DNA of 64,000 bases from Nitrosomonas sp. (lineage in GTDB: Bacteria > Pseudomonadota > Gammaproteobacteria > Burkholderiales > Nitrosomonadaceae). Numbering within the stretch: position 1 is the stretch's first letter; every line of letters starts with the position of its first letter. The stretch spans positions 62,001-126,000 of the forward strand of contig JAMWZW010000003.1 of the NCBI GenBank assembly GCA_024281995.1, written 5' to 3'. Under the pieces are notes generated by a model. The model ran no database searches. It saw only the letters and a program-made list of their open reading frames with translations, and had not been told where the DNA came from. Both the position numbers and the translations under genes were made by a program. This document shows positions 4,769-58,092 of this stretch, piece after piece.

Positions 4769-5263
4769 ATGAGCAATCAATCAAGCAAGGCATTTATCGC
4801 TTTGGGCAGCAATCTGGAAAATCCCGTTTTCCAAATACAGCATGCATTCGAAGAAATAAAACAAATCCCCGGTACATGCCTACTCTGTCATTCTTCATTG
4901 TATAAAACTGCCCCGATGGGGCGACTCGACCAACCCGACTTTATTAATGCAGTTGCACTGATTAAAACACAGCTTGCACCGCATGATTTACTCGAGGCAT
5001 TGTTAATGATTGAACACAATCATGGACGTATGCGTAAATCCTTAAATGAACCACGTACATTAGACCTGGATATTCTGTTGTATGGTGAACTGCAATACCA
5101 GGACGAGGTTTTGACGATACCCCACCCGCGGATGGCACAACGTGCGTTTGTGCTAAAACCATTGATGGAAATTGCTCCGCATTGTCAAATCCCCGGCTAC
5201 GGTCCAATTGCACCGCTGCTTGAATTGTGTCAGGGACAACAACTCGAGCGGATAAAAGTTTGA
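4769..5263 (+). CDS. folK: 2-amino-4-hydroxy-6-hydroxymethyldihydropteridine pyrophosphokinase
   Basis: HPPK transfers pyrophosphate from ATP to the pterin precursor in folate synthesis. Of its 164 residues, the recognisable blocks are IALGSNLENP near the N-terminus, PDFINAVA, and the family signature HGRMRKSLNEPRTLDLDIL, followed by IPHPRMAQRAFVLKPL. Length matches the family. It is separated from panB by one base, so the two are likely translated together; pcnB-folK-panB-panC is a common proteobacterial gene order. Confidence 0.95.
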   Translation: MSNQSSKAFIALGSNLENPVFQIQHAFEEIKQIPGTCLLCHSSLYKTAPMGRLDQPDFINAVALIKTQLAPHDLLEALLMIEHNHGRMRKSLNEPRTLDLDILLYGELQYQDEVLTIPHPRMAQRAFVLKPLMEIAPHCQIPGYGPIAPLLELCQGQQLERIKV

Positions 5264-5264
5264 T

Positions 5265-6056
5265 ATGAGAACCACACTCACCACATTGCAAAAATTAGCC
5301 GAGAATAACGAGAAATTCACGGTTTTAACATGCTATGACGCAATTTTCGCAGGCATATTGGAAAATGCAGGCGTGGATGCTTTGCTGGTAGGTGATTCAC
5401 TTGGAAACGTATTACACGGCGAAAGCACGACTTTAGCAGTAACCTTGGATCATATGATTTACCATACCCGCTGCGTCTCACGGGGTTCGAACAAAGCGTT
5501 CATCATCACTGACATGCCTTTTGGCAGCTATCAACAATCACCGCAACAAGCGTTTGAAAATGCCGCCAAAATCATTTCTGCTGGCGCGCATATGGTCAAA
5601 ATCGAGGGAGGTCTGATCATGGCCGATACCCTTCAATTTCTGACTCAGCGCGGTATTCCGGTATGCGCGCATATCGGTCTGACGCCGCAGTTCATTCATC
5701 AATTGGGTGGCTATAAATTACAGGGAAATTCGCAAAAATCGGCTAAACAATTGCTGGATGATGCAAAAATACTGGAAAAAGCAGGTGCAGGCTTAATGGT
5801 AATCGAAATGGTACCTGCCAAACTGGCGAAAAAGATCACCCAAACAATTTCTATTCCCACCATTGGAATTGGTGCAGGCGTTTACTGCTCGGCTCAGGTT
5901 TTGGTACTACATGATATGCTGGGACTTTATCGGAGTAAAAAACCGCGCTTTGTAAAAGACTTTATGGCCGGTACAAACAGTATTCAAGAAGCAGTCGCAA
6001 GCTACGTATCGGCTGTTAAGACTGGACAGTTTCCAAGCAATGAACATGAATTTTAA
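5265..6056 (+). CDS. panB: 3-methyl-2-oxobutanoate hydroxymethyltransferase
   Basis: Ketopantoate hydroxymethyltransferase makes ketopantoate from alpha-ketoisovalerate and methylene-tetrahydrofolate, the first step of pantothenate and CoA synthesis. The 263-residue protein has the expected blocks: [42 protein letters not shown] and PTIGIGAG. Metal-ligand aspartates fall in the DALLVGDS and ITDMPFGSY regions. It starts one base after folK and is followed 14 nt later by panC, the enzyme two steps downstream. Confidence 0.96.
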
Positions 6057-6070
6057 CGAGCGGTTGTGAC

Positions 6071-6901
6071 GTGAAAATATTTAATGATATTACTGCATTG
6101 CGGGATAACCTAAGGTCAAAGCAAGCCATTGTTTTTGTGCCAACTATGGGCAATTTGCATGCCGGCCATCTTGCTTTGATCAAGCAAGCCAAACAACTAG
6201 CGGATCATGTTGTCGTCAGTATTTTTGTTAATCGATTGCAATTCCTGCCGCATGAAGATTTTGATCATTATCCCCGCACTTTTGAAAATGACTGCAAACT
6301 GCTTACTGGCCTTAATGTCAATACCCTTTTCGCACCAAGTGAAAAAATTCTTTTTCCTACAAAGCAGGAATTCTTGCTAGCATTACCACCTGTGGCAGAT
6401 ACTTTAGAGGGGGAATTTCGCCCGGGTTTTTTTCGTGGCGTTGCAACTATAGTACTGAAGTTATTCAATATTATTAAACCCAATCTTGCAGTGTTCGGCA
6501 AAAAAGATTACCAGCAATTGCATATCATACGAGAAATGGTACAGCAATTGAATTTGCCTGTTGAAATTATCGCCGGAGAAACTGTTCGTGCACCAGATGG
6601 GTTAGCATTAAGTTCCCGTAATCAATATTTGAATAGAGCGCAACGCGAAGAAGCTTGTAATTTGTATCAAACGCTTCTGCAAATCAAGCATGAAATTATC
6701 TCGGGGCGTAGAGATTATCCAGTACTCCTAGAAATAGCTACAAAAACGCTCGTGAAACGTGGATGGAAAGTTGATTATATTAGAATTCAAAAACGCAGCT
6801 CATTAACGCCTGCACATATTGATGATACAGATTTAGTGATGCTCGGTGCTGCTTGGTTGGACAAGACACGACTGATCGACAATCTGGAAATAAGCGGTTA
6901 A
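6071..6901 (+). CDS. panC: pantothenate synthetase
   Basis: PanC joins pantoate and beta-alanine using ATP. It starts with GTG at 6071. Motifs are [14 protein letters not shown] (the HIGH-type nucleotide-binding motif, GNLHAGH), [29 protein letters not shown] and LSSRNQYLN. The length of 276 residues is normal. It ends the pcnB-folK-panB-panC cluster; dnaA begins 69 nt later. Confidence 0.95.
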
Positions 6902-6970
6902 ATCTTTTCGTACGTAAACCTTTGCACTGTTGTTGCTTTTTTAAATCAGACCAATAAAGAACAAAGAACT

Positions 6971-8338
6971 ATGCAATCACTCGATACCTTCTGGTTATCT
7001 TGCCTTGATCATTTTAAAAATGAACTTAACGCACAACAATTTAATACCTGGATTAAACCATTACAAATTGATCCGGCACATAATAACGATAGTGAAGTGG
7101 TACTTATTGCTCCCAATCGTTTTGTCTCGCAATGGGTGAAAGACAATTTTATTGTTCATATTGAAGCAATGGCACAGGGGTATTTTGCTAAAAAAATCCA
7201 GTTTCATTTAAAGCTTGCAGAACAGACTGAAGCTAAAAATATTTTGCCAAACTCTACACATGAACAAAGTGAATCACAGGTTACATCCACTACGATATAC
7301 CCAGCGGTAAAGAAAAATCCAAGCCGTTTGAATCCAAATTTCACATTTGACAATTTTGTAACCGGAAAAGCTAACCAGTTAGCACGCGCAGGTGCAATTC
7401 AAGTTGCAGAATCACCAGGTATTGCCTATAACCCCCTTTTTATCTATGGTGGCGTAGGTTTGGGAAAAACCCATCTGATTCAAGCTATTGGCAATCAAGT
7501 TTATGAAAACAACAAAAGCGCGAAGATTCGCTACGTGCATGCCGAAAAATACGTTTCCGACGTCGTAAGTGCTTATCAACATAAGGCTTTCGATAAGTTT
7601 AAACTTTATTATCATTCACTAGATCTTTTATTGGTCGATGATGTACAGTTTTTTGGTGGAAAAAGCCGCACCCAAGAAGAATTTTTCTACGCCTTTAATG
7701 CACTGATAGAAACTCACAAACAAGTCATCATCACCTGTGATTCCTATCCAAAGGAAATATCCGGGCTGGAAGAAAGATTGGTATCACGTTTTGGATGGGG
7801 TTTGACTGTAGCAATAGAACCTCCAGAATTAGAAATGCGCGTAGCGATTTTGTTGAAGAAAGCTGAGTTGGAAAAAATTCGCTTGGATGAAAATGTTGCT
7901 TTTTTCATTGCCAAACACATCCGCTCGAATGTACGCGAATTAGAGGGTGGATTAAAACGAGTACTGGCATTCTCACGCTTTGTCGGACAAGACATAACAC
8001 TGGATCTGGCGAAGGAAGCACTGAAAGATCTGCTCGCTGTACAAAGCCGTCAGATCTCCATCGAGAATATTCAAAAAACCGTTGCTGATTATTACAAGAT
8101 CAAAGTATCGGAAATGTACTCAAAAAAACGCTCACGTGTTGTTGCACGGCCCCGGCAAATGGCAATGGCAATAGCTAAGGAACTCACTTCACTAAGCTTG
8201 CCCGATATCGGTGAAGCTTTTGGTGGAAGAGATCATACCACGGTACTGCATGGCTATAGGAAAATAAACGAATTACGTATTTCTGATCCAATGGTGAGTA
8301 AAGATTTCAATGCACTAATTATGATTCTAAGAGGTTAG
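6971..8338 (+). CDS. dnaA: chromosomal replication initiator DnaA
   Basis: DnaA-ATP binds DnaA boxes and opens oriC. The protein has 455 residues: N-terminal domain I (about 1-85), a variable linker, an AAA+ domain with Walker A GGVGLGKTH (160-168) and Walker B LLLVDDVQ (219-226), and C-terminal domain IV with the DNA-binding signature RPRQMAMAIAKEL and FGGRDHTTVLHGYRKI. It is preceded by pan genes, not by the rpmH-rnpA cluster found divergent from dnaA in many bacteria. Two consensus DnaA boxes lie just after its stop codon. Confidence 0.97.
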   Translation: MQSLDTFWLSCLDHFKNELNAQQFNTWIKPLQIDPAHNNDSEVVLIAPNRFVSQWVKDNFIVHIEAMAQGYFAKKIQFHLKLAEQTEAKNILPNSTHEQSESQVTSTTIYPAVKKNPSRLNPNFTFDNFVTGKANQLARAGAIQVAESPGIAYNPLFIYGGVGLGKTHLIQAIGNQVYENNKSAKIRYVHAEKYVSDVVSAYQHKAFDKFKLYYHSLDLLLVDDVQFFGGKSRTQEEFFYAFNALIETHKQVIITCDSYPKEISGLEERLVSRFGWGLTVAIEPPELEMRVAILLKKAELEKIRLDENVAFFIAKHIRSNVRELEGGLKRVLAFSRFVGQDITLDLAKEALKDLLAVQSRQISIENIQKTVADYYKIKVSEMYSKKRSRVVARPRQMAMAIAKELTSLSLPDIGEAFGGRDHTTVLHGYRKINELRISDPMVSKDFNALIMILRG

Positions 8339-8343
8339 TAACT

Positions 8344-8352
8344 TGTGAATAA
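8344..8352 (-). promoter_or_regulatory. DnaA box
   Basis: Reverse complement reads TTATTCACA, an exact match to the consensus TTATNCACA, six bases after the dnaA stop codon. Confidence 0.8.
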
Positions 8353-8378
8353 CTCGTTTAAATAAAAATCTGTATTAT

Positions 8379-8387
8379 TTATCCACA
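8379..8387 (+). promoter_or_regulatory. DnaA box
   Basis: TTATCCACA is the strongest consensus DnaA box. It faces the opposite box at 8344-8352, and the AT-rich stretch begins right after it. Confidence 0.85.
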
Positions 8388-8519
8388 AATTATTCAACAG
8401 TAATACAACGATCATACCAATCAAAATTTTTATCTATCTTTTTGATATTATTTAATTATTATAAAATATACAAAAATTTTTAAGACATTATTAAACTATT
8501 ATTATTTTTTCTTATATAA

Positions 8520-9635
8520 ATGCTTTTAATAAAAACCGATAGGGAAACATTGCTAAAGCCCTTACAAACCGTAACTGGAATTGTAGAACGTCGACAAACA
8601 TTACCCATCCTATCAAATGTCTTGATTCAGCAAGATGAGAAAAAGACGTCTTTTTTGACCACTGATTTGGAAATACAGATTAAAACAGTGACTGTAAAAG
8701 AAAGCTCAAACAAGCAAAAATTCTCATTGACTGTTTCAGCAAAAAAACTTCAGGATATTCTTCGTTCACTGTCGACAGATGCAGAAGTTTCATTAACAAG
8801 ACGAGACGATCATCTACAGGTGAAATCGGGTAAAAGTACTTTTAATTTGCAAATACTTCCGGCAGAAGATTTTCCACAAATTGCTGAAGAATCTGAATCT
8901 GAAATTCTTATTACGTTAAAACAAAAAGATTTAAAAAAACTGCTACACCATGTGCAATTTGCTGTTGCACAGCAGGATATTCGTTATTATCTCAATGGCC
9001 TTTTATTACATATTGAAGATAAACACTTGGTTGCTGTCGGTACAGATGGGCATCGCTTAGCCTATTTTGCAACCCAATTGGATAAGAGTTATGGAAAACA
9101 GGAAATCATTCTTCCCCGCAAAGCGGTTTTTGAATTGTCAAAATTATTGAGTGACGAGGAGGATCTGGTAAGTATCGAATATTTACAAAACAAAATACGG
9201 TTTTCTTTTTCAGAAATCACGCTAACATCCAAAGTTATTGATGGCAAATTTCCTGATTACAATCGGGTCATTCCTACTAACAACACTAAACTTTTTGAAA
9301 TAAATCGCTTAATTTTTTTACAGGCATTGCAACGAGTATCCATTCTTTCTAACCAGAGTGAGAAATTTCGCGGCGTGCGCTTGATCATCAGTGAAAACAA
9401 TCTATGTATTGTCTGTAAAAATAACGAACAAGAAGAAGCGCAAGACGATCTAGAAATTAAATATAATGGAGAATCAATTGATATCAGCCTCAATATTACT
9501 TATTTACTCGATTTATTAAATAATATTGACAGTGAGACGGTACAATGCGCGTTTGAAAACGCGAGTAGCGGCGTTTTAATAACAATACCGGGTAATAACG
9601 AATTTAAATACATTGTTATGCCCATGAGAATTTGA
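8520..9635 (+). CDS. dnaN: DNA polymerase III beta subunit (sliding clamp)
   Basis: DnaN forms the ring that tethers polymerase III to DNA. The 371-residue protein shows the three-fold repeated clamp domains and family blocks such as ERRQTLPILSNVL near the N-terminus, GTDGHRLAY in the middle and KYIVMPMRI at the extreme C-terminus. Length fits (E. coli 366). No Shine-Dalgarno sequence is seen in the AT-rich origin DNA before its ATG. It is followed 60 nt later by gyrB. Confidence 0.97.
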   Translation: MLLIKTDRETLLKPLQTVTGIVERRQTLPILSNVLIQQDEKKTSFLTTDLEIQIKTVTVKESSNKQKFSLTVSAKKLQDILRSLSTDAEVSLTRRDDHLQVKSGKSTFNLQILPAEDFPQIAEESESEILITLKQKDLKKLLHHVQFAVAQQDIRYYLNGLLLHIEDKHLVAVGTDGHRLAYFATQLDKSYGKQEIILPRKAVFELSKLLSDEEDLVSIEYLQNKIRFSFSEITLTSKVIDGKFPDYNRVIPTNNTKLFEINRLIFLQALQRVSILSNQSEKFRGVRLIISENNLCIVCKNNEQEEAQDDLEIKYNGESIDISLNITYLLDLLNNIDSETVQCAFENASSGVLITIPGNNEFKYIVMPMRI

Positions 9636-9680: not shown

Positions 9681-12116
<2,436 letters not shown>

Positions 12117-51382: not shown

Positions 51383-52393
51383 ATGGACTTACTCACCCAA
51401 GGATTACTCGGCACCGCAATGGCGCAAGCCGGGGCGAAGCAACAAGAAATACGCATCGCAACCGGCATCGGTTTTTTGGCAGGCATTGCAGCGGATGTGG
51501 ATATCCTGATCCAATCGGAAAATGATCCGCTGTTGAATATCGAATTTCACCGCCATTTCACGCATTCACTGTTTTTCGTGCCGCTTGGCGCCTTGCTTGT
51601 AGCATTGCTGCTGTGGCCGTTGTTGCGCAAGCGCTTGCCGTTTTCCCGGTTATATCTGTTTACTTTTCTCGGTTATTGCTTGAGCGGCATGCTCGATGCA
51701 TTCACCAGTTATGGCACGAATTTGCTGTGGCCGGTGAGCGATGCGCGCGTGGCGTTGAATATCATCTCGGTATTGGATCCTGCTTTTACGCTGATTCTTT
51801 TGATTGCCGGCGTGATAGCATTTAGACGATATAGCCGTACAATGGCGCGGTTTGGATTATTGCTGGCAGCGGTTTATCTATCGTTTGGCTGGTTGCAATG
51901 GCAACGCGCCGAAAACGTGGCCGAATCGTTGATTGCAGAAAGAGGGCACCGTGCAGAACAACTGCTGGTCAAACCGACGCTCGCCAATTTAGTATTGTGG
52001 CGCGCGATTTACGAATTCGACGGCAAATTCCATGTCGACGCGATCCGCGTCGGCCTATTTTCCGAACCGCGCATCTATCCCGGCGAAGCGGTCGACAAAT
52101 TCGTATTGGAGCGCGATTTGAATGGTTTACCAGCTTCCTCCGTCCTGGCGCAGGATATCGCGCGCTTCAGCCATTTCTCGTCGGGATTCCTCACCATCCG
52201 CCCGGAACAGCCAAACGTGCTCGTGGACGTGCGCTATTCTAACTTACCCACCACAACCGCACCGCTGTGGGGCATCGAAATCGATCCGGATCAACCGGAT
52301 CAACATGCGCAATACAAGCTCTATCGCGATTCATCCAGCGCTACACGGGAGAAGTTTTTGAAGTTGCTGTTGGGCGAGCATATGTTGGATTGA
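51383..52393 (+). CDS. YdjM-family membrane-bound metal-dependent hydrolase-like protein
   Basis: The 336-residue protein has several transmembrane helices after the family motif MDLLTQGLLGTAMAQAG..DVDILIQ..FHRHFTHSLFFVP, where Asp and His residues (HRHFTH) could bind metal. E. coli YdjM is LexA-regulated and of unknown activity. A soluble region of about 150 residues follows the last helix. Stands alone before the conflict gene. Confidence 0.75.
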   Translation: MDLLTQGLLGTAMAQAGAKQQEIRIATGIGFLAGIAADVDILIQSENDPLLNIEFHRHFTHSLFFVPLGALLVALLLWPLLRKRLPFSRLYLFTFLGYCLSGMLDAFTSYGTNLLWPVSDARVALNIISVLDPAFTLILLIAGVIAFRRYSRTMARFGLLLAAVYLSFGWLQWQRAENVAESLIAERGHRAEQLLVKPTLANLVLWRAIYEFDGKFHVDAIRVGLFSEPRIYPGEAVDKFVLERDLNGLPASSVLAQDIARFSHFSSGFLTIRPEQPNVLVDVRYSNLPTTTAPLWGIEIDPDQPDQHAQYKLYRDSSSATREKFLKLLLGEHMLD

Positions 52394-52482: not shown

Positions 52483-55215
52483 ATGCGAGTCTATCTTTCA
52501 TCCACATTGAACGATCTGGGGCCTGAGCGCGAAGCAGTTCGGAAAGCCCTGAGCGGTCATTTTACGGTTGTTGAAAGCTATATTGCCGACGAGCGCAGTG
52601 TCCGCGAAAGTTGTTTGGCGGATGTGGCGGGTTGCGATCTCTATATTGGAATTATCGGTCGTCGTTACGGATTCATTCCTTCCGGGCAGCCTTTTTCCAT
52701 TACGGAACTAGAATACCGGCAGGCGCGCAAACATAAGCTACCGGCACTGATCTTCATCAAGGACAATGACGCGATCCTGGGTCCATTTTACGATGCAGTC
52801 ACCCAAGAGAATCCGCCGGATCTGATCGAATCGTTCCGGCAGCTCGTCAATAGCGGTACTGAAGAGGCCGGGCGTCCCGTAATTTTCAAAACACCGGAAG
52901 ATCTCAAGGAACAGGTACTGAAAGCTCTCTTACGTTATTCCCAGCGCAAAAGTAATATTCCACCAAAACGTATTGCAGGCCGTCCATACCCCGGTTTGCG
53001 CGCCTTTTTGCCCGCCGAATCGGATCGATTCTTCGGCCGGGATGCGGAAATCGAAGCGTTGGCTGAACGGCTCATTGCACGTAGCGAGTGTTTTCTCGCG
53101 GTGATCGGGCCTTCGGGCTCGGGTAAATCCTCGCTGATATACGCAGGGCTTATTCCAGTCCTTACGGAGAGTTCTATCGTAGGGGGTATTCGCTGGATTC
53201 CAATCAGTTTTTCCCCGCGCGAATTGGGCGATGATCCGTTCCAGTCCCTGGCGGCTGCCTTGAGCAAATCATTTCCAGACCAAAACTGGCGTGTTCCGGA
53301 TCTGACGCAGCGGCTACGAACGCATCCAACCGAGATTGCCACTGTGGTGAGCGATGCTCTGGGGTCAGTTGGCGCAGCCGTCCAGCTTCTGCTGTTCGTT
53401 GATCAATTTGAAGAAGTATTTGCCAGTAAAGTGGATGATGCTGCACGGAGTAACTTTTTTAAATTGCTGACTGCTGCGGTTGAGTCTCCGTTGGTGCGCG
53501 TGGTGATCGCGATGCGTTCTGATTTTTACAACCAATGGCCGCAAGATGAAATCTGCATCGCGTTACTGCGCTCGGGACATTTCCCGGTTGCCGTGCCGGG
53601 GCCGGCAGCGTTAGAAAAAATGATCACCGGTCCAGCTCAGGCAGCAGGACTGACTATCTCCCCGCGCTTGGTGCAGCGCATTCTGGATGACACTGGATCA
53701 GGTCCGGGGGCATTGGCGCTGGTTGAGTTTGCTTTATCCTTGTTATATGACAAAAAGGAAAAGGATAGCGATGTGCTGACCGAAACAGCTTACACCGCCA
53801 TGGGGGGTGTTGCCGGTGCGATCAACGGTTTGGCTGAACAAGCGGTTACGCAGACTGAGGAAGCGCTTCAGCAAAATGCGAAAGTATTAGTATTGGATGA
53901 GGAAGTCATTTCACGTTTGTTTCTGGCCATCGCCAGCGTCGAGCAGCGCGATAATGAAACGGGCGGTGCGTTGGCTGTGGTGCGCCGCCGTGCAATCAAG
54001 AGTGATTTGCCTGGGGCTGCTTTGATCTTGGTTCAGCGACTTGTTGACAAGCGTATTCTGGTCAGCCGGGAAGGCAGTAACGGACAACCGGCTGTTTATG
54101 AAGTGGGGCACGAAGCGGTATTCAGCCACTGGGAACGTTTCAAGGACTGGTACGCACGCTATGCAGCGGATCTGGCGCTGTACCGTCAGGCCGAGCAGGC
54201 GGCGCGCGACTGGGATCGGCAGCAACGCCTCCCGGTGCTGAAATGGGGGTGGGAGCGGCAAAGACCCGCCATTGCAGCGCTGGCCAGACTGAACCTAATG
54301 GTTGTAACGGCATCCGGCTCTGATTTCAGCGATCCGATGATTACGCTTTGGCATCAGCTCGAAAAGCAATTGGAACAACCGTTGCGCCAATTTCTTTACC
54401 CGGAACCGCTGATACTGCTTGAAGAACTCAACACCGATGAGACGCCGCACCAGCGGCGCGAGGAAATCGGCCTGCGCCTCAATCAGATGGGCGATCCACG
54501 ACGCGGTGTAGGATTGAATGGCAATGGTCTGCCCGATATTGTGTGGATAGACATCCCGGCCGGTGAAGTTATCCTGGAAACTGCATCACGAGAACGCTTT
54601 GCAGTGCCACCGTTTCGCCTGGCCCGCTACCCGATTACGTGGATGCAATACCGCGCCTTTCTCGATGCTGAGGATGGTTATTGCAATCCAGCCTGGTGGG
54701 AGCATGATAGTTTGAGGGAGGAGAAATCCGGTCAGCAGCTTTGGTCTTTTACCAATTATCCGGTGATCAATGTCTCTTGGTCCGATGCAGTGGCCTACTG
54801 CCGCTGGCTGAGTGAAAAACTGCGGTTGCCGATTCGATTGCCCACCGAGTGGGAATGGCAATGGGCTGCTGCCGGGGGTGCGCAGCAAGACTATTCATGG
54901 GGCGATGAGTGGAACGGGCAGCGCGCAAACAGTTCTGAGGCAGGCATTGGACGTACGGTTGCGGTAGGCTGTTATCCGCTGGGCCGCAGCCCATTCGGGG
55001 TAGACGATATGACAGGCAACGTCTATCAGTATTGCCTGAGTTCATACGAGCAGCCGGGGGATGTTTCCTTGATTTCGAGTGAGCCCCGCGTGGTGCGCGG
55101 TGGTTCCTGGGACCATGATTTATACTTCGTGCGCACGTCGGTGCGCTACTTCTCGCCGGGCGGTCGCAGCGTCAGTTTCGGCTTCCGGGTATTATGTTCG
55201 TCCCCCATCGAATAG
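52483..55215 (+). CDS. DUF4062-STAND NTPase-FGE conflict protein
   Basis: The ATG at 52483 gives 910 residues. Residues 1-110: DUF4062, a TIR-like nucleotide-signal/effector domain (MRVYLSSTLNDLGPEREAV, DLYIGIIGRRYGFIP). Residues about 165-450: STAND-type AAA NTPase (PYPGLRAF, Walker A GPSGSGKSS 209-217, Walker B LLLFVDQFEEVF 302-313) with a helical tail. Residues about 685-905: FGE/SUMF1-type C-lectin fold (PITWMQYRAFL, NYPVINVSWSDAVAYCRWLS, LPTEWEWQWAAAGG, DDMTGNVYQYC, RGGSWD, FGFRVL). The architecture matches NTP-dependent biological conflict proteins: a sensor at the C-terminus, NTPase switch, effector at the N-terminus. It ends next to a toxin-antitoxin pair. Confidence 0.85.
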   Translation: MRVYLSSTLNDLGPEREAVRKALSGHFTVVESYIADERSVRESCLADVAGCDLYIGIIGRRYGFIPSGQPFSITELEYRQARKHKLPALIFIKDNDAILGPFYDAVTQENPPDLIESFRQLVNSGTEEAGRPVIFKTPEDLKEQVLKALLRYSQRKSNIPPKRIAGRPYPGLRAFLPAESDRFFGRDAEIEALAERLIARSECFLAVIGPSGSGKSSLIYAGLIPVLTESSIVGGIRWIPISFSPRELGDDPFQSLAAALSKSFPDQNWRVPDLTQRLRTHPTEIATVVSDALGSVGAAVQLLLFVDQFEEVFASKVDDAARSNFFKLLTAAVESPLVRVVIAMRSDFYNQWPQDEICIALLRSGHFPVAVPGPAALEKMITGPAQAAGLTISPRLVQRILDDTGSGPGALALVEFALSLLYDKKEKDSDVLTETAYTAMGGVAGAINGLAEQAVTQTEEALQQNAKVLVLDEEVISRLFLAIASVEQRDNETGGALAVVRRRAIKSDLPGAALILVQRLVDKRILVSREGSNGQPAVYEVGHEAVFSHWERFKDWYARYAADLALYRQAEQAARDWDRQQRLPVLKWGWERQRPAIAALARLNLMVVTASGSDFSDPMITLWHQLEKQLEQPLRQFLYPEPLILLEELNTDETPHQRREEIGLRLNQMGDPRRGVGLNGNGLPDIVWIDIPAGEVILETASRERFAVPPFRLARYPITWMQYRAFLDAEDGYCNPAWWEHDSLREEKSGQQLWSFTNYPVINVSWSDAVAYCRWLSEKLRLPIRLPTEWEWQWAAAGGAQQDYSWGDEWNGQRANSSEAGIGRTVAVGCYPLGRSPFGVDDMTGNVYQYCLSSYEQPGDVSLISSEPRVVRGGSWDHDLYFVRTSVRYFSPGGRSVSFGFRVLCSSPIE

Positions 55216-55285: not shown

Positions 55286-55305
55286 ATACGTACGTGAATA
55301 CGTAT
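55286..55305. promoter_or_regulatory. operator-like palindrome of the toxin-antitoxin operon
   Basis: ATACGTA (55286-55292) and TACGTAT (55299-55305) are perfect 7-bp arms with a 6-bp spacer, 23 bp before the antitoxin ATG. YefM/Phd antitoxins autoregulate by binding such paired palindromes. Confidence 0.6.
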
Positions 55306-55327
55306 GATGGGCTATTGGGAGGTATTT

Positions 55328-55570
55328 ATGACAACGTTGAATGTAACCGAAGCCAGGGCTAAATTATATAACTTAATCGATGAAACGGTATCCAGCCACA
55401 AGCCTATTATTATTAAAGGGAAAAGATCGAATGCGGTATTGCTTTCCGAGGAAGATTGGAATGCCATCAATGAAACACTTTATTTAGTTTCCATGCCTGG
55501 CATGCGTGAATCAATTATGGAAGGCTTACAAACCAGCACTGATGCTTGCAGTAAAGACCTGGATTGGTGA
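55328..55570 (+). CDS. YefM/Phd-type antitoxin
   Basis: The ATG at 55328, preceded by GGGAGG, gives 80 residues; the longer frame from 55304 overlaps the operator. The N-terminus TTLNVTEARAKLYNLIDETV and KRSNAVLLSEEDWNAINETL is the Phd/YefM DNA-binding fold; the acidic C-terminus would wrap the toxin. The stop overlaps the toxin start. Confidence 0.9.
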   Translation: MTTLNVTEARAKLYNLIDETVSSHKPIIIKGKRSNAVLLSEEDWNAINETLYLVSMPGMRESIMEGLQTSTDACSKDLDW

Positions 55571-55830
55571 TGTGGGTGCTTTGCTATACCCATCAAGCGA
55601 TAATCGATGCCAAAAAACTTGCGGCAGCCGGGTTGAAACAAAAAGCGCTTGCATTGCTCGATGTTATTCGAAATGATCCATACCAAAATCCGCCTCCTTA
55701 TGAAAAATTAGTTGGCGATTTGTCGGGAGCTTATTCTCGCCGCATCAATATCCAGCACAGGCTTGTTTATCAAGTACTGGAAAAAGAAAAAATTGTTAAA
55801 GTATTGCGGTTGTGGACGCATTATGAGTAA
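55570..55830 (+). CDS. YoeB/Txe-type mRNA-interferase toxin
   Basis: The ATG at 55570 overlaps the antitoxin TGA (TGATG); a GTG one codon earlier is possible. 86 residues with Txe/YoeB landmarks: KLVGDLSGAYSRRINIQHRL, LVYQVL and the terminal catalytic LWTHYE (His-Tyr). YoeB cleaves mRNA in the ribosomal A site. The motif set looks intact, so the toxin should be active when the antitoxin is degraded. Confidence 0.9.
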   Translation: MWVLCYTHQAIIDAKKLAAAGLKQKALALLDVIRNDPYQNPPPYEKLVGDLSGAYSRRINIQHRLVYQVLEKEKIVKVLRLWTHYE

Positions 55831-55853: not shown

Positions 55854-56570
55854 TTATTTTAAATATGCAATCCATTTGCGATACAACCGTTCAGCCACCG
55901 CATTCAACGCCGCCACACGTTCCGGCAAATTCTTTTCAATTTCCTCCAGCGATTGCACCGACGGTTCATTCAGGCTTGCCAACTCTTCTGCGCCGACGCT
56001 GCACCAGTCAATGACCAGGCGCTCGGTCATTTCGACGTGGCATTGCATGCCTAAATGCATGCCCAGCGCAAAAGCCTGGTTTTCACAATAGGGGCTCGAT
56101 AGGATGCAGGCGGCGCCTGAGGGAATGCTGAAGGCTTCGCCGTGCCAGTGAAAGCAATTGAAGGTTGTTAAATCACCGAACCATTCGCGCGCAACTGCGT
56201 TATCTGGAACACTCACTTCGCCCCAACCCATTTCCTTGACCGGGCTGACGCTAACGGTGCCGCCTAAGGCTTTGGCCATCAATTGTCCGCCCAGGCAGTG
56301 GCCAAGCACCGGCATGTCTGCGGCAACCGCCTGGCGGATCAACGACAAAGAATTTTCAATCCACGGTAAATCGTCATTGACACTCATCGGCCCGCCCATA
56401 AACACCAAGCCGCTGAATTCATCGATACTGACCGGTGGTTTTTCTCCGGCGTCTATTTTGATTAATCGCCACGGAATATGATTGTTGTCGAGAAATGTGG
56501 CAAAATAGCCGGGCCCTTCGATGGGTAAATGTCTAAAAATTGCAACCGGTTTCATGGAATTTCCTGCCAT
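55854..56570 (-). CDS. class I glutamine amidotransferase-like protein
   Basis: The 238-residue protein has the GATase1 nucleophile elbow VLGHCLGGQLMAKALGG (catalytic Cys) and FHWHGEAFSIP (catalytic His), GLVFMGGPMSV at the oxyanion site. Such stand-alone proteins resemble GMP-synthase-type amidotransferases or gamma-glutamyl hydrolases. Substrate unknown. It converges on the toxin gene. Confidence 0.85.
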   Translation of the reverse strand: MAGNSMKPVAIFRHLPIEGPGYFATFLDNNHIPWRLIKIDAGEKPPVSIDEFSGLVFMGGPMSVNDDLPWIENSLSLIRQAVAADMPVLGHCLGGQLMAKALGGTVSVSPVKEMGWGEVSVPDNAVAREWFGDLTTFNCFHWHGEAFSIPSGAACILSSPYCENQAFALGMHLGMQCHVEMTERLVIDWCSVGAEELASLNEPSVQSLEEIEKNLPERVAALNAVAERLYRKWIAYLK

Positions 56571-56709: not shown

Positions 56710-58092
56710 ATGTCAGTAACAAAACATTCATTCGCTGATCTAGTGCAAATTGAGCAGTTACGCAAAATAGAGTCTGGCCAAGCGGAACATTTATCGTACG
56801 CCAGTATTCAGGATATGCCGCGATCTGCCAGCGGTGATTTTAAGTATGCAGATTTTATTCAGCAATTGAGCACGCGCGCCAAGCGCTTGATTCAGGAAAA
56901 CGTATTGAACGGTGCCTTGCAGCAGCCACGTTTGCAATTTATCCGAGCTCGCTGGATATGTTGGATAGCCGCTGTTATTCTGGGTGGATTGGCTGCCAGC
57001 CAGGCAGTCAGTGAATTTTCCACACTCAATATTTACTGGTTGCTGGCTGTGTTATTGGGATTTAATACCATTTCGCTATTGCTGTGGTTATCAGGCATTA
57101 CCCTGAATCTGCAAAGTTTGAGCAGCGGCGTTGTCGCGCAGCTTGCCAGTTGGTTACCTTATCGGCACAAAAAAGATCCTACGATTGCTTCATTGGCGTC
57201 CCATGCCTGGTGGGAGAGCTGTTTGGCTGGAAACGTTGGGAAATGGCGCATTAGTGTATTGACGCACCAGTTCTGGCTGATTTATTTAATCGCAGGTATG
57301 GTTTTATTGATACTACTGATGCTGGCCAAGCAATACAATTTTGTCTGGGGCACCACATTGCTGCCGGACACTACTTTACCCAGGCTGACGCAAATTCTTG
57401 GTACGCCCTTGGAAGCGATAGGGTTGAAAATTCCCGACAACCAGCAAACTGCTGCAAGCCGAATCGGAGTGAGTCAGCAAGATGCCGAAACACGTATAGC
57501 CTGGGCTAGTTTTTTAATCGGTACCTTATTGATATACGGAATATTGCCGCGGCTTTTAGTGCTAAGTATTTCATTTGTGATGCAAAAATGGAGTGAATAC
57601 CGGTTTAGGTTGGATTTATATTTACCCTATTATATTGCGCTACGCCAGCGATTGATGGCGAGAGAAGCCAGAGTTGAAATCATTGATGCCGATCCGAATG
57701 CCGGTATTAAGCCCGCTGAAATTGACCTTCCACCGCAAAATGTCACCATTCCAGCCAATGCACAGGCATTTGGCATCGAACTGGACGATGACACATGCTG
57801 GCCAGAAGCAATGACATGCCGTTTCAATATCACTGATCAGGAATCCCATGATAGAGCGATGGCGCTGATCAAAAATCTCAAAGGCCCACTGTTATTGGGT
57901 GTTGCGGCGCATCGTTTGCCCGATCGCGGTGTGCAACGGTTAATCAAGGAGCTAGTCGATAATACCGCGGAGAAACCGTGGTTGATTTTGTTGAGCAAAC
58001 CATCGGTTTCAGTAACTAGTTCTCGTGAATTGGCCTGGTTCCGGCTTGCGGAAGCTTGCGGCATTCCCGCAGAACACGTTATTACCCGATAA
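56710..58092 (+). CDS. DUF2868 membrane protein
   Basis: 460 residues with about four transmembrane helices (WICWIAAVILGGLAASQAV, IYWLLAVLLGFNTISLLLWL, FWLIYLIAGMVLLILLMLA, FLIGTLLIYGILPRLLVLSI) and a soluble C-terminal part that includes LDDDTCWPEAM. This is the DUF2868 pattern, usually next to a DUF3482 GTPase, as here (3-nt gap). Function unknown; a membrane stress or transport device is only a guess. Confidence 0.8.
   Translation: MSVTKHSFADLVQIEQLRKIESGQAEHLSYASIQDMPRSASGDFKYADFIQQLSTRAKRLIQENVLNGALQQPRLQFIRARWICWIAAVILGGLAASQAVSEFSTLNIYWLLAVLLGFNTISLLLWLSGITLNLQSLSSGVVAQLASWLPYRHKKDPTIASLASHAWWESCLAGNVGKWRISVLTHQFWLIYLIAGMVLLILLMLAKQYNFVWGTTLLPDTTLPRLTQILGTPLEAIGLKIPDNQQTAASRIGVSQQDAETRIAWASFLIGTLLIYGILPRLLVLSISFVMQKWSEYRFRLDLYLPYYIALRQRLMAREARVEIIDADPNAGIKPAEIDLPPQNVTIPANAQAFGIELDDDTCWPEAMTCRFNITDQESHDRAMALIKNLKGPLLLGVAAHRLPDRGVQRLIKELVDNTAEKPWLILLSKPSVSVTSSRELAWFRLAEACGIPAEHVITR

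Follow-up and report, generated by a model that had tools for sequence, protein, structure and literature searches.

Diversity-generating retroelements (DGRs) diversify a target gene by a well-established copying mechanism, in which a reverse transcriptase (RT), acting with the protein Avd, copies a template region while misreading its adenines, and the mutated cDNA is written into the variable region (VR) of the gene. Here we describe such a VR, apparently left without its mutator, in a defence-like gene of the ammonia-oxidising bacterium Nitrosomonas sp.; the gene lies in a 64,000-nucleotide stretch of DNA, which we refer to as the window. The gene encodes a DUF4062–nSTAND1–FGE protein (Pfam E-values 1e-18, 7.7e-90 and 3.3e-38, respectively), and its general class is not new. 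Conflict systems with DGR-linked FGE-type domains have been published (PMC7159879). STAND proteins carrying FGE-type VRs and the occurrence of DGRs in Nitrosomonas have likewise been described; Nitrosomonas species are named among organisms with several related DGRs, and the CLec-bearing STAND proteins are called experimentally uncharacterised (PMC10907252).

Two described systems are close to the window gene. In clade 5D/DGR 6 of Thiohalocapsa PB-PSB1, nSTAND1 is likewise combined with a C-terminal FGE/CLec domain carrying a VR; there the N-terminal domain is EAD8 in place of DUF4062, whereas in the window genome DGR machinery was not found (PMC10907252). The cyanobacterial CLec paralogue all3226 is also a paralogue of a DGR target, with remnant template/VR homology and no RT nearby, and its authors suggest that the diversifying parts are removed once a good variant exists (PMC7517822). 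For all3226 the absence of an RT concerns the neighbourhood only, whereas for the window gene the entire assembly yielded no DGR RT, and RT and template debris is present at sibling loci of other species.

By sequence, a profile built from the window domain and its relatives also matches TvpA of Treponema denticola (PDB 2y3c, 'variable protein 1'; 5.6e-22) and 5nxl (1.1e-19), an entry named as a protein kinase which we take to be the Thermus DGR target. Unlike these two, the FGE domain of the window gene is joined to a STAND NTPase in one protein. The AlphaFold model of residues 675–912 is too weak for a comparison of folds, with a mean predicted local distance difference test score of 62.7 and values below 50 across most of the VR.

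A literature search found no publication on DUF4062 together with a STAND NTPase, and, among the matches listed on Nitrosomonas DGRs, orphan or remote VRs and remnants, titles and opening lines of abstracts hold no description of a genus-wide loss of DGRs with retention of VRs. The target class and one orphan VR being known, the new part is that a number of related species have VR genes and lack a matching RT.

We conclude, with a probability of about 0.88, that the window VR is an orphan, or relic, DGR target, whose RT, Avd and template were lost while one variant was frozen. This reading is preferred because the VR is homologous to DGR templates, it has changed with a bias to adenines, no machinery is found in the assembly, and RT and template debris persists at sibling loci.

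The templates used for comparison come from intact DGRs of congeners. A script that collects ungapped pairs whose mismatches fall chiefly at the adenines of one copy returned template/VR pairs in 10 of 20 fetched loci (none in L101, L104–L108, L110, L114, L116 and L117) and in 6 of a second set of 11 (L193, L167, L201, L209, L169 and L186; none in L195, L192, L166, L197 and L162). The first set includes L098, L099 and L100, three Nitrosomonas loci in which an nSTAND1-FGE target is accompanied by RT, Avd and template, and whose template/VR pairs have at most two non-A mismatches per 70-base window. The targets of L099 and L100 are TIR-nSTAND1-FGE proteins by Pfam, and that of L098 is assigned from its sequence and FGE-type NCBIfam matches. 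The three RT frames contain no stops and share the motif GLPIGNLTSQF, presumably the form characteristic of DGR RTs; Avd (NF033474) scores 81.1, 89.4 and 79.0 bits, the last just below the cut-off of 80. In four congeneric template/VR pairs, changes affect 16/30, 16/29, 17/33 and 13/33 template adenines and 0/90, 4/91, 5/87 and 2/87 of the other bases.

The window VR aligns to the templates of these three DGRs over approximately positions 55084–55209. It differs from them at 18/29, 18/28 and 23/32 template adenines as against 14/88, 14/89 and 15/85 other bases (Fisher test, 4.6e-6, 2.1e-6 and 6.4e-8); the differences from these foreign templates are thus biased to adenines but not confined to them. 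At the ten sites that face AAY codons of the template, the window has kept the third base in all ten and changed the first two bases in all ten. Over 16 genes, the third base agrees with the template in 138 of 160 cells of these sites. Alignment column 244, where the template has AAC, is excluded from the count of ten because the window gene has a codon deletion there; with this column included, 10 of 11 third bases are unchanged in the window gene, and the pairwise values for the VR given below become 0.683/0.634/0.253.

For 105 pairs of 15 DUF4062-type genes, divergence at codon positions 1/2/3 is 0.246/0.208/0.446 in the FGE body and 0.688/0.627/0.252 at the VR sites. A frameshifted paralogue is counted in the 138 of 160 cells and left out of these pairwise figures; G011, which is frameshifted in its tail, is in them, and without it, its tail being partly out of frame, the values are 0.227/0.183/0.425 and 0.696/0.607/0.235. 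Divergence at the VR sites does not track that of the body (rho 0.16, p 0.10, the pairs not being independent), amounting to 0.65 in the 28 pairs whose body third positions diverge by less than 0.35 and to 0.66 in the rest. From these comparisons, the VRs of the DUF4062-type genes appear to have been rewritten or exchanged after the genes parted. Between the window gene and four targets of G065, G045 and G020, the third-position difference is 0.62–0.64 in the body and 0–0.1 at the VR sites, and the VR and the block behind the stop codon are much more alike across target classes than the gene bodies are.

A counterpart of the window gene with its machinery in place is found at L193, from a metagenome-assembled genome of a groundwater betaproteobacterium. 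The two proteins are 58% identical over residues 3–912, share DUF4062, nSTAND1 and FGE, and their genes have a similar 3′ end and post-stop block. Unlike the window gene, the L193 target is adjoined by a template, 291 bp beyond the gene, by Avd (86.8 bits) and by an RT frame that is matched over 354 residues at 69% and contains one in-frame stop. Over 138 bp, the L193 template and VR differ at 19 of 29 adenines (18 at codon positions 1 or 2, one at position 3) and at none of the 109 other bases. With its VR changed only at template adenines and a stop in its RT, this DGR was active recently but may be inactive now. Taken together, the alignment to AAY templates of three congeneric DGRs, the adenine bias of the differences and the L193 homologue support the assignment of 55084–55209 as a DGR variable region by descent, in line with what the earlier note had proposed for 55111–55188. 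In keeping with this, the predicted C-type-lectin-fold ligand-binding domain (FGE-sulfatase, residues 706–905 of 912) carries the VR at the 3′ end of its gene.

The source assembly (G000) comprises 2.88 Mb in 21 contigs and is 97.57% complete. A complete DGR would consist of RT, Avd and template region, and none of the three was found in it: a search with a congeneric DGR RT gave nothing at E ≤ 0.001, PF22296 for Avd had no match, and a template pattern allowing up to two mismatches had no hit. DNA searches of the genome with the VR or the templates gave only the gene itself and a broken paralogue as significant matches, and searches for RT or Avd debris in the window and beside the paralogue gave a best tblastn E-value of 0.19. 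The absence of RT and template that had been remarked for the window thus extends, for a DGR-type RT, Avd and template, to the entire assembly, and the genome-wide search that the earlier note had recommended returned neither a template nor a DGR RT. Across 125 genomes of the family, PF22296 matches in 10, in 8 of them over the cut-off, and RTs with at least 79% identity to the G045 enzyme across most of its length occur in four (G045, G020, G065 and G012). All four lie outside the set of 13 genomes that have a DUF4062-type gene more than 60% identical.

Two candidates in the source genome were rejected. The single PF00078 match, and hence the only RT, is Drt8 (483 bits), a defence-type reverse transcriptase at positions 4976–6484 of L018 (G000:C1:40000-50000) with a Fic-like neighbour, Fic being assigned by eye. 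The paralogue at C3:131–134 kb is not a template; it is a whole frameshifted copy of the gene with 71% DNA identity over 2.9 kb. It lies at 5351–8091 of L017 (G000:C3:126001-142000) and carries a diverged VR of its own. Visual inspection shows a hairpin with a single mismatch downstream of it, and its locus is common to three relatives.

Remains of DGR machinery are found at loci of sibling species. Of the 13 loci examined in relatives, five correspond in position to the window gene and three to the paralogue. In G092 the syntenic gene is frameshifted and followed, just before the GATase gene, by a C-terminal RT fragment of 43 residues at 77% identity, which occupies the interval where the window has a toxin–antitoxin pair. 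In G011 a frameshifted gene is followed by a hairpin, a template-like copy and an N-terminal RT fragment; the VR differs from the decayed template core at 21 of 34 template adenines and 11 of 96 other bases. In G082 the end of the gene shows a short match to RT (48–52% over 42 residues), and a phd match is present behind the gene as well; in G025 and G083 the same interval matches phd and/or yoeB without RT. Replacement of the RT by the toxin–antitoxin pair is thus no more than a suggestion. The simplest account of these loci is repeated loss of the DGR after rewriting of the VR. As a separate observation, L107 (G041:C4) holds at about 780–960 the start of a template, its AAY codons perfect, which then gives way to other sequence, and the same contig has FGE-type matches and an RT fragment; this looks like a half-deleted DGR.

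A natural control is available within the protein family. Ten Accumulibacter nSTAND1-FGE genes with a near-constant C-terminus diverge by 0.073/0.089/0.444 at the VR-site columns compared above, and no RT match was found in the flanking sequence searched, whereas eight hypervariable genes diverge by 0.736/0.657/0.332 and have an RT match at seven of the eight loci. The loci were picked by eye from 42 C-termini, 37 of which passed a filter for stop and motif, and all eighteen except L193 come from Accumulibacter, Thauera, Zoogloea or Rhodocyclaceae records. The constant subfamily is a natural non-DGR branch of the family. Genes of this kind, without RT match in the flanks searched, stand at L163–L165, L168, L171, L173–L175, L189, L194 and L196; L194 looks constant too and is omitted from the count.

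A second DGR family has left VRs in the same genome. Two FGE genes at C1:~336–343 kb and, on C15, a TIR-FGE gene have 3′ ends that can be aligned to the template of G069, which holds another DGR family with RT, Avd and template. Against this template, 18/32, 14/32 and 17/32 adenines and 4/86, 14/86 and 6/86 other bases are changed; the first figure of each series belongs to the first FGE gene of L233 and the last to the TIR-FGE gene. Over 5.3 kb the C1 locus shares 80% identity with that of G069, but its two targets are separated by a nucleotidyltransferase/HEPN pair, in the place that Avd, RT and template occupy in G069. In L233 (G000:C1:332000-350000) the two FGE genes, at 5930–9127 and 10103–11089, lie beside AAA ATPase and TIR genes; the TIR-FGE gene of 455 residues is at 8007–9374 of L234 (G000:C15:24000-42000). 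On the evidence of these alignments, a genome in which no DGR RT was found is a carrier of VRs of two DGR families.

The case for a VR had been made in the earlier note from codon usage, and this argument we have dropped as proof. The 14 codons it quoted were read correctly, 13 ending in C or T and none being AAC or AAT, and the count is exact. Its weight as evidence is slight: the 26-codon stretch 55111–55188 has 18 codons ending in a pyrimidine (NNY; the gene mean is 51%), but 47 of 887 windows of 26 codons reach that number, the VR's own overlapping windows included, and the residues D, H, Y and F can be encoded only by NNY codons. The corresponding segment of two other FGE genes in the genome has 18 NNY codons of 24, and both carry DGR-type VRs too. 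The weakness of the count is why the hypothesis was tested by homology instead. In the template alignment, 10 of the 14 codons face AAY; those at 55123, 55159 and 55177 face other codons containing A in at least two of the three templates, and TTA at 55120 faces a constant CCR codon, so that a change of template adenine does not explain it.

The earlier note left it open whether the VR would be served in trans or is a relic. We consider it very improbable that the VR is still being rewritten by an RT and template of a DGR located on a plasmid or prophage missing from the assembly, or in a gap of the chromosome. The assembly is an incomplete draft, DGR-like RTs do occur on plasmids and phages, and one of the second-family VRs fits a foreign template closely, with only four non-A differences in 86. 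Against this, no DGR RT, Avd or template was found in the assembly, none of 30 plasmid and 43 phage records (match E ≤ 1e-30) reaches 60% identity to the matching RT, and 14–15 non-A differences separate the window VR from the three congeneric templates; of the two options, the relic is the better supported. The possibility that no DGR was ever involved, and that an FGE domain under diversifying selection acquired its NNY bias by chance, is negligible. NNY richness is by itself not rare and some residues require such codons, but selection on residues would not hold third bases while positions 1 and 2 saturate, the Accumulibacter subfamily without RT nearby has the opposite pattern, and we regard this explanation as already refuted by the direct homology to the templates.

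A further alternative, which we judge unlikely, is that the VR was acquired through ordinary recombination, from a VR gene in a relative that carries a DGR, and not by retrohoming in this lineage. It would account for the likeness of the VR and post-stop block across target classes noted above, and the post-stop block falls outside the templates. The similarity of the VRs would also follow from retrohoming out of a single template family, and the gene holds the same position in 5 of 13 relatives' loci, with an RT fragment directly behind it in one, so that a local DGR suffices. Several points also weigh against a relic as such. In a draft of 21 contigs a DGR could lie on a missing piece; the VR departs from the foreign templates at about 14 non-A positions, and the parent template is not among these templates; an RT trace was not found beside the window gene in the tblastn search, and no intact RT was seen beside a DUF4062-type target, that of L193 having its stop. 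As for repeated loss, the window gene has no trace beside it, most of the relatives' genomes are drafts, and the greater likeness of VR and post-stop block than of bodies makes VR recombination possible. We nevertheless hold to the relic DGR target on the grounds given.

The features of the locus are collected in Table 1. The site adjoining the conserved 3′ end of the VR is likely the initiation-of-mutagenic-homing site; this end reads CCCCC in most VR genes and CCCAC in the templates seen, and G082a, G082b, G069b and G011 depart from it. The post-stop block, conserved between otherwise different target genes, is also found at L098–L100 and L193. Some copies of the block are then followed by a GCGCCGC-NNN-GCGGCGC hairpin, a target-site signal or a terminator. 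A GC-rich hairpin downstream of the VR is known from the Bordetella phage DGR; the one about 55 nt past the stop may equally be a terminator. With a perfect stem of at least 7 within 140 nt as the definition, a hairpin follows 4 of 5 VRs of intact congeneric DGRs and 5 of 16 DUF4062-type genes, and there is none behind the window gene. Its absence behind one of the five and 11 of the 16 makes a missing hairpin a poor sign of decay.

Table 1. Target gene, variable region and neighbouring genes in the window
Feature	Position	Strand	Remarks
Target gene, 912 aa	52477..55215	+	From open reading frame list; start codon TTG 52477 or ATG 52483
Domains of target protein			DUF4062, residues 4–83; nSTAND1, 170–584; FGE-sulfatase/C-type-lectin-like, 706–905 (Pfam)
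DGR variable region	55084..55209	+	Homologous to template regions of congeners; limits by eye on alignment
Ten codons opposite template AAY	55111..55176	+	55111, 55114, 55117, 55126, 55147, 55150, 55162, 55168, 55171, 55174
3-bp deletion in VR relative to templates	near 55150-55153	+	
Conserved 3′ end of VR	55192..55212	+	By likely initiation-of-mutagenic-homing site
Conserved block behind stop codon	55216..55263	+	Common to VR genes of other target classes; absent from templates
YdjM-family membrane protein gene	51383..52393	+	Synteny marker upstream of target gene
Phd/YefM-type antitoxin gene	55304..55570	+	Interval of the RT fragment of G092, a syntenic relative
YoeB/RelE-type toxin gene	55564..55830	+	Partner of Phd/YefM-type antitoxin
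GATase (class I glutamine amidotransferase) gene	55854..56570	-	Synteny marker downstream of target gene
DUF2868 gene	56710..58092	+	Synteny marker downstream of target gene

The closest relatives found of the window protein have about 80% identity over the full length and 84% over part of it, and no close strain was found. PADLOC gives only a weak mad3 match to the gene (E 2.6e-4), and nSTAND1 sits between the two other domains; a near-identity phage search gave no match to the 3′ end.

On the relic reading, an ancestral DGR RT with Avd would have copied a template with AAY codons, misreading adenines, and the mutated cDNA would have been written into the 3′ end of the gene, randomising some ten residues of the C-type-lectin-like FGE domain. 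RT, Avd and template would later have been lost, presumably within this lineage, leaving the gene frozen with one variant that may still work. The architecture and the literature on STAND proteins, which point to C-terminal sensing and N-terminal action, suggest a STAND-type sensor whose FGE domain would bind a molecule of an invader, its specificity being determined by the ten randomised residues, and whose DUF4062 end would act or signal. The window protein is probably an intracellular sensor frozen in one variant after loss of the mutator.

More tentatively, and with considerable doubt, Nitrosomonas DGR lineages may repeatedly mature a STAND receptor by hypermutation, discard the mutator and keep the frozen receptor, a diversify-then-fix course in which toxin–antitoxin pairs now stand at two separate loci of this genome where relatives have RT or its debris. 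Programmed diversification of receptors is rare in bacteria, and DGRs are one instance of it. A genus in which several species have randomised receptor genes without a matching mutator, with half-decayed stages beside them, bears on whether DGRs are kept running or are discarded after use, and it makes naturally fixed receptor variants available for ligand testing.

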